Source: Oscillospiraceae bacterium (GTDB lineage Bacteria; Bacillota; Clostridia; Oscillospirales; CAG-272). Taken from it: a stretch of 38,379 nt of DNA. Shown here in pieces: positions 28,134-29,538 of this stretch. The stretch is taken from NCBI GenBank assembly GCA_015063625.1, contig SVTT01000017.1, positions 1 to 38,379 of the forward strand, read 5' to 3'. Made by a program: the position numbers and the translations under genes. Below the pieces are notes generated by a model that was given only the letters and a program-made list of their open reading frames with translations, was not told where the DNA came from and did no database searches. Numbering within the stretch: position 1 is the first letter of the stretch; each line of letters starts with the position of its first letter.

Positions 28134-28341
28134 TATCAATATACCCTCCATTCTTTCAATGCAATCTGTAACTTGGCAATAAAGTCAGCCTTGCCGTGAG
28201 CGTAAAAATCTTCTCTGATATTTGCACCTAGGCAAGAGGGAGCGATCTGAACCCGCCCGAAAGCCCTGATTTTCAGCGCTGTCGGCGGCAAGTGCGCCTA
28301 TGCTTGTTCCCGAGCGTAATTATACCATAATTTTGAGAGTC
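28134..28341. other. leader of the GH78 gene
   Basis: No gene is visible. At 28227-28252 the sequence CCTAGGCAAGAG followed by GGAGCGA resembles 109-132 of the repeat at the left end of the window, a possible scar of the same element family. No clear promoter for the GH78 gene was found. Confidence 0.35.
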
Positions 28342-28848
28342 TGTAAAGAGTGATGATTGCCCTTATAGGCAAGTGATGTAGTGCTACGCACAGTGATGTA
28401 CTGCGCCGATGGCGCAAAGTGATGTGATGTGTTCCTTTCCACGCCCGAAGGACACATCACAAGGCGAAGCCGTCATCACGCACGCAGTGCGCATCACGTT
28501 CCGCACAAGCGGAACACATCGTTCCAAAAACGAAAAAAGGGGAGACCCGGCGACTGAAAATCGTAAAATCTCCCTGAAAGTTAATTATTAAAGTTTGAAT
28601 CCCATCCACACGGTATTTTGGGCGTTTGTAAAGAGTGATGTTGCGGCGTTGCCGCAGTGATGTTATGCTTCGCATAGTGATGTAGCTCCCGTTGGTCGCA
28701 GTGATGTGATGTGTTCCTTACTCACGCGCGAAGCGCACATCACAAGGCGAAGCCGTCATCACGCACGTAGTGCGCATCACGTTCCGTGCAAGCGGAACAC
28801 ATCGTTCCAAAAACGAAAAAGCAGTCCATTGGACTGCTTTCGTTTTTG
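28342..28848. repeat. 507-bp hairpin-array block, copy 1
   Basis: Tandem partner of 28852-29358 (510-base offset, one difference at 28456/28966 by eye). It contains two modules, A at 28349-28525 and B at 28634-28808. Each module is a run of mini-hairpins joined by AGTGATGT in the left half and by CATCAC, its complement, in the right half, around a larger central stem. Module A stems include TTGCC/GGCAA, GTGC-TAC-GCAC, TGCGCC-GAT-GGCGCA, GGC-GAA-GCC, GCAC-GCA-GTGC and GTTCCGC/GCGGAAC. Short open frames across it are by-products of the repeat. Confidence 0.93.
28809..28848. terminator. terminator-like hairpin closing block copy 1
   Basis: AAAAACGAAAAAGCAGTCCA pairs with TGGACTGCTTTCGTTTTT. The same hairpin ends copy 2 at 29319-29358, directly at the 3' end of the initiator tRNA gene, where it can terminate the leftward tRNA transcript. 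Confidence 0.8.
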
Positions 28849-28851
28849 TGT

Positions 28852-29356
28852 TGTAAAGAGTGATGATTGCCCTTATAGGCAAGTGATGTAGTGCTACGCA
28901 CAGTGATGTACTGCGCCGATGGCGCAAAGTGATGTGATGTGTTCCTTTCCACGCCCGAAGGACACACCACAAGGCGAAGCCGTCATCACGCACGCAGTGC
29001 GCATCACGTTCCGCACAAGCGGAACACATCGTTCCAAAAACGAAAAAAGGGGAGACCCGGCGACTGAAAATCGTAAAATCTCCCTGAAAGTTAATTATTA
29101 AAGTTTGAATCCCATCCACACGGTATTTTGGGCGTTTGTAAAGAGTGATGTTGCGGCGTTGCCGCAGTGATGTTATGCTTCGCATAGTGATGTAGCTCCC
29201 GTTGGTCGCAGTGATGTGATGTGTTCCTTACTCACGCGCGAAGCGCACATCACAAGGCGAAGCCGTCATCACGCACGTAGTGCGCATCACGTTCCGTGCA
29301 AGCGGAACACATCGTTCCAAAAACGAAAAAGCAGTCCATTGGACTGCTTTCGTTTT

Positions 29357-29358
<2 letters not shown>
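28852..29358. repeat. 507-bp hairpin-array block, copy 2
   Basis: Near-identical to copy 1 with modules A at 28859-29035 and B at 29144-29318, then the 29319-29358 hairpin. The identity ends inside the CCA end of the initiator tRNA gene. Near-perfect identity implies a recent duplication or ongoing homogenisation. Confidence 0.93.
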
Positions 29359-29434
<76 letters not shown>

Positions 29435-29450
29435 ATATGAAATTGAAAAA

Positions 29451-29538
29451 TGGTGCCGGAAGCCGGGATCGAACCGGTACGATACAAAGTATCACGGGAT
29501 TTTAAGTCCCGGGCGTCTGCCAGTTCCGCCATTCCGGC
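29451..29538 (-). tRNA. tRNA-Leu (UAA), CCA encoded
   Basis: On the minus strand the gene runs from GCCGGAA to TTCCGGCACCA, 88 bases, with the long variable arm GTGATACTTTGTATCG of a class II tRNA. The anticodon loop CTTAAAA gives anticodon UAA. It is the first gene of the two-tRNA transcript. Confidence 0.96.

Follow-up and report, generated by a model that had tools for sequence, protein, structure and literature searches.

Inverted word arrays behind a bacterial tRNA gene: probable non-coding part of a small mobile element with an IVP-family gene

What is the array of small linked hairpins that lies behind a tRNA-Met gene in an Oscillospiraceae bacterium, and does it have a protein partner? 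The window considered here, that is, the whole stretch of 38,379 nucleotides that was analysed, is contig C12 of a genome (G000) of 1.76 Mb that is 94% complete. Direct reading of the sequence bore out the design proposed in the initial annotation: four modules in the order A B A B, inside a 510-bp tandem repeat. In each, mini-hairpins separate repeated words, which are of the AGTGATGT type in the left half and of the CATCAC type in the right half. With their canonical orientation on the minus strand, the A modules occupy positions 28349–28521 and 28859–29031 and the B modules 28634–28804 and 29144–29314; all four emerge from sequence reading and repeat comparison, the first copy of each also from RNA folding and both B copies from the three-word pattern described below. 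Modules A and B are 86% identical (172/200). The duplication is as close as had been claimed, since the first unit (28342–28848) equals the second (28852–29358, period 510) except for a single T/C mismatch at 28457, and identity does stop within the CCA end of the tRNA-Met (CAT) gene (29357–29434, minus strand), which lies upstream of the element and adjoins tRNA-Leu (29451–29538). A terminator-like hairpin (29317–29359, minus strand) immediately follows the CCA end and is repeated at 28807–28849, and a promoter-like TTTACA-N17-TATAAT (28319–28347, minus strand) comes right after the last linker of module A. Read along the minus strand, the order is thus tRNA-Leu, tRNA-Met, terminator, B, A, B, A, TTTACA-N17-TATAAT and a decayed gene of the IVP family, to which we return. 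The modules stand behind a terminator, not within one, and behind tRNA-Met, not in an rRNA gene; at the terminator position behind tRNA-Met several relatives (G070, G072 and G076, for instance) have a plain hairpin, as judged by eye.

Is this pattern more than a local accident? The exact three-word pattern has 43 matches in the genome, window included, and none when it is read backwards, so that chance is not its origin. The search for further copies, which the initial annotation had proposed, returned 26 elements besides the window, a set that excludes the four window modules (the last base of their words varies), copies cut by contig ends and copies with fewer exact words. The elements are dispersed and use five words: TGATGT in 14, TGAAGT in 7, TGAAAT in 3, TGATAT and CGATAT in one each. 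Word purity within them is 0.93, against 0.37 in shuffles (maximum 0.44), a value biased upward in that the elements had been detected by one word. The linker had been suspected of being the element that selection keeps, and it is indeed largely uniform inside an element while differing between subfamilies. When no word was presupposed, a scan turned up inverted arrays in 66 of 198 records, which had mostly been retrieved because of such words, against 0 of 198 Markov controls; GTGATGT and GTGAAAT were the commonest words, followed by GTGATAT, GTGAAGT, GCGATAT and a few others. Two copies, C6_16k and C7_39k, are 97.3% identical across 373 nt in unrelated flanks. A separate repeat family of about 270 nt also exists in this genome (C22_27k and C9_16k, 90%).

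The inversion of the words implies a branched fold, as had been predicted. Inverted complementary sequences appear when the window modules are folded as RNA, with z values against dinucleotide shuffles of −5.8 for module A and −6.7 for module B with its terminator. In 19 of the 26 other elements, chosen by hand, the bases of left words pair with those of right words in 262 of 306 cases as RNA and in 270 of 306 as DNA. The mini-hairpins are equally regular. Over all loci, stems of at least 4 bp fill 116 of 188 intervals on the left and 116 of 184 on the right, compared with 12 and 9 after shuffling, and the triloops fall into two types, TNC prevailing on the left (47/72, with GNA in 1/72) and GNA on the right (50/75, with TNC in 0/75).

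The initial annotation knew of no named family with this design, and here it has to be corrected. Rfam RF01706, Gut-1, matches five of the eight half-modules of the window below its cut-off, namely both B left halves on the plus strand and both B right halves and one A right half on the minus strand, with 29.9, 29.9, 24.8, 23.8 and 23.8 bits against a gathering cut-off of 50; scores above it, of up to 55.7 bits, are reached at four further places in the genome. Up to E=1, Gut-1 has no match in the A left halves and the remaining A right half, and between 27800 and 29900 no Rfam family besides Gut-1 and tRNA was matched. In the alignment of module B to Gut-1, three mini-hairpins stand on a repeated linker, with the word GTGATGT in place of GTGAAAT. 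Both halves of B match on opposite strands, so the module consists of two Gut-1-like units in inverted orientation. Gut-1 is found in 27 of 39 relatives (21 above cut-off) and in 64 of 147 genomes of the order (52 above cut-off); among 14 control genomes Escherichia coli has a match below cut-off and, in one search, so does Bacteroides ihuae. Tandem Gut-1 matches of equal score, resembling the window duplication, occur in G237:C49, G203:C8 and G206:C97, spaced 513, 230 and 349 nt. The 510-bp duplication might be an assembly artefact; its one mismatch and the tandem matches elsewhere speak for a true duplication. The end of contig C2 and the start of C24 (L201 and L202) both stop within the same array half, which suggests that such arrays may interrupt assemblies.

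Excerpts of PMC2864571 present Gut-1 as a non-coding RNA that occurs in environmental sequences from the human gut and in no others. Following that proposal, a transcript of the half-module would act alone, any IVP gene being just a fellow traveller nearby, and the strong folding of the modules fits such an RNA. Yet half-modules come in inverted pairs with opposite triloop types, so that both strands look alike; copies are dispersed, many to a genome, some of them inside the terminators of other genes; and they are tied to IVP genes, as we now set out. We regard an autonomous RNA as unlikely.

The partner gene, its decayed version next to the window array and the insertion of arrays in terminator loops had all escaped the initial annotation. 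The genome has four matches to the S23p/IVP four-helix-bundle protein (PF05635/TIGR02436), three of them above the Pfam cut-off, and all four adjoin an array. Two of these genes are full length, one beside TGATGT and one beside TGAAGT, which are the words of the two numerous array types (14 and 7 of the 26); another matches in its first half only and the last is truncated. The linkage extends well beyond this genome. Within 350 nt of IVP genes, inverted word arrays score at least 6 at 41 of 60 loci, compared with 1 of the 54 control windows drawn from these loci, and with a score of at least 7 the counts are 32 of 60 and 0 of 54; these loci are a non-random sample, their source genomes having been found by the word pattern. 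The score of 6 is reached at 27 of the 30 loci that come from relatives and at 14 of the 30 that come from named genomes, most of which belong to other phyla, and 19 of the 60 loci remain below it. In the named genomes the words are, by eye, mostly tandem, free of hairpins and placed on both sides of the gene. Among loci L257–L286, IVP genes of Bacteroidota, Cyanobacteria, Planctomycetes and others often sit between hairpin-free arrays of 7–8-mers that are inverted on the two sides. Gut-1 and IVP also go together across genomes: in 147 genomes both occur in 55, neither in 67 and a single one in 9 and 16, the 9 being genomes with Gut-1 and no detected IVP (Fisher p=1.4e-16, uncorrected for host kinship), and among 39 nearer genomes 24 have both, 9 neither and 3 and 3 a single one (p=1.7e-4, likewise uncorrected). 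According to excerpts of PMC4990558, the S23p/IVP proteins came to notice in the early 1990s and still have no known function. No paper relating them to repeat arrays came to light, and the link appears new to the open literature, as far as searching reaches.

A protein next to repeated words might simply bind them upstream of its own gene, as an operator or antitoxin-like array would be bound, for control and with no role in mobility. A promoter similar to that of the window does lie between array and IVP start at 7 of 21 array-bearing loci chosen by hand, where shuffles lead one to expect 0.075, and the other 14 are without one. Against an operator speak the 22 of 26 arrays in G000 that have no IVP match beside them and the dispersed copies with unrelated flanks, and we hold this explanation to be improbable.

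The words change along with the IVP lineages. On a tree of 31 IVP rows the words need 15 changes, which is the minimum; shuffled labels need 25.3 on average, and none of 200 shuffles was as low. The labels had been assigned by eye, with L267 and L279 as the only rows from L257–L286 and with L253 omitted. Words and IVP proteins have diversified together in this sample, with GTGAAGT on two separate branches and GTGATGT not forming a single clade. Same-word clades unite f1 with f4, f12, f14 and a Lachnospiraceae MAG, i.e. different bacterial families, from which gene and array seem to travel together. Linked inheritance of the two could by itself yield the clustering. In an Oscillospiraceae MAG (L131:1755–2440), two arrays about 520 nt apart have TGATGT on the left and mainly TGAAGT on the right, perhaps a word switch in progress.

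Mobilisation by a Y1 (TnpA-REP) transposase, as for REP/BIME repeats, had been raised by the initial annotation, and these short palindromes in inverted pairs, intergenic and dispersed, would suit it. The transposase itself is what the genome fails to provide: PF01797 has no match at E<=0.01 in G000, 94% complete as it is, whereas the same search matched 6 of 14 control genomes. The diversity of the words, moreover, tracks IVP. The connection was rejected, and REP/BIME-type mobilisation is left with a barely perceptible chance of being right.

In the window, the IVP gene survives as a remnant in two pieces on the minus strand. The first (LRSGTSIGA, 28293–28319) is a motif as found in intact IVPs; the second (GANIREDFYAHGKADFIAKLQIALKEW, 28148–28228) matches PF05635 at E=0.0063 with 17.2 bits, below the cut-off of 33.8. 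They are split by an insertion of 64 nt (28229–28292), part of which recurs near C9_16k and elsewhere in the genome; the loci noted beside its recurrence are L020, and L220 and L224. The genus yielded 17 tRNA-Met ends, and G000 and G077 alone have an IVP motif at most 1500 nt away; of the remaining 15, 4 are too short to judge. The word-array test used at these sites missed the window's own modules, so that absence of arrays there is judged from the first 420 nt as read and from the IVP motif. The remnant is closest to the protein of G077, which is of the AGTGAAT-word type and sits at the same tRNA, and it is less like the GTGATG-word type. Array and remnant in the window may thus, to go by their sequences, stem from different insertions.

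Where do these elements land? A tRNA or tmRNA gene on the same strand ends at most 420 nt upstream at 14 of the 60 IVP loci, while upstream on the opposite strand there is none and downstream one per strand. Outer terminator arms of at least 10 bp flank 8 of 21 elements in G000 (C19_24k and C9_14k having been dropped), against 38 of 420 cross pairs; one of the eight, the arm of C21_77k, is probably internal to its element. A stricter test over all loci, leaving out elements too close to a locus end, gave a weak result, 10 of 64 against 1–6 in six rounds of cross pairs, and the claim about terminators is therefore carried by the G000 copies and by a comparison of the gene at C5_7k. That copy sits within the terminator loop of a protein gene. 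In 15 relatives the matching gene ends in a plain terminator hairpin in 11 (by eye) and in an array of its own in 2, with array 3' ends that are not resolved, 2 being unclear. A hairpin loop has been replaced at C5_7k, and such replacement is suggested for up to 8 of the 21 elements. The flanks of 10 copies, inspected by eye, have no clear target-site duplication, a feature that a MITE of a DDE transposon would show together with terminal inverted repeats in common with an autonomous element. In rRNA, as excerpts of PMC4990558 have it, intervening sequences coding for the same protein family replace the tetraloops of helices.

The answer that we favour, and think probable, is that the array acts in cis as the non-coding part of a small mobile element, one whose sole gene codes for the four-helix-bundle protein 23S_rRNA_IVP/S23p/TIGR02436. 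A word of about 7 nt repeated on the left, with its reverse complement on the right, would let a single strand fold into stacked word–word stems with mini-hairpins on both sides, and each IVP lineage would have its own word. That word and protein change together suggests direct recognition. A solved relative (2RLD) has five chains in its entry, and we infer that an IVP pentamer may bind the word, as RNA or as single-stranded DNA, and that copying may need this binding. The landing sites suggest hairpins as the target: the element would insert into the loop of a hairpin or right behind one, frequently at the rho-independent terminators of tRNA and protein genes, and the target might be recognised as a hairpin. 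Many copies, as in the window, carry a decayed IVP gene or none. A far broader proposal, to which we give somewhat less than an even chance, is that of a class of mobile elements, spread over several phyla and lacking any known transposase, whose pentameric four-helix-bundle protein would recognise lineage-specific arrays of words of about 7 nt and drive insertion into the hairpin loops of nucleic acids; rRNA intervening sequences, Gut-1 RNA and many heptamer repeats could then be parts or relics of it. The array gives a first concrete handle on the role of the ring-shaped IVP protein, and matching an IVP lineage to its word array opens the function of the protein to binding and mobility assays. 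Gut-1, which Rfam lists as an RNA family, would have to be seen as one half of a mobile element, and the heptamer repeats of several phyla, so far unexplained, would gain a candidate partner protein.

How does this compare with known systems? REP sequences are dispersed inverted short palindromes, and STRR repeats are cyanobacterial. The arrays share those features of REP/BIME elements and differ from them in their partner gene, the Y1 transposase being unmatched here. Avd of the diversity-generating retroelements belongs, in the excerpts of PMC10053308, to a related four-helix-bundle family; one of our four IVP proteins has an Avd match in NCBIfam, weak and below cut-off, and no reverse transcriptase gene was noticed next to the arrays. 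IVP genes near CRISPR loci are already in print (passages of PMC3936711; a legend in PMC10910872), and such neighbourhoods might reflect either repeat arrays of their own or insertion there. The Beggiatoaceae heptamers (TAACTGA) likewise form intergenic arrays of 7-mers, and their author suggested that the mobile element might be a protein that binds the repeats; hairpins between the words are not described for them, however, and the IVP terms looked for are absent from that text (PMC4679880). Gut-1, too, has mini-hairpins joined by words (GUGAAAU), but its model covers a single half with a single word, taken as an RNA; the complete element has two inverted halves, varies in its word and is linked to IVP. 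Comparable as well are the intervening sequences of 23S rRNA with an S23p/IVP reading frame, which have the same protein family in an inverted-repeat element at a former hairpin loop (excerpts of PMC4990558). The arrays described here differ in lying in terminators or behind tRNA genes, in combining a lineage-specific word with mini-hairpins, and in being present in many copies, most of them without a gene.
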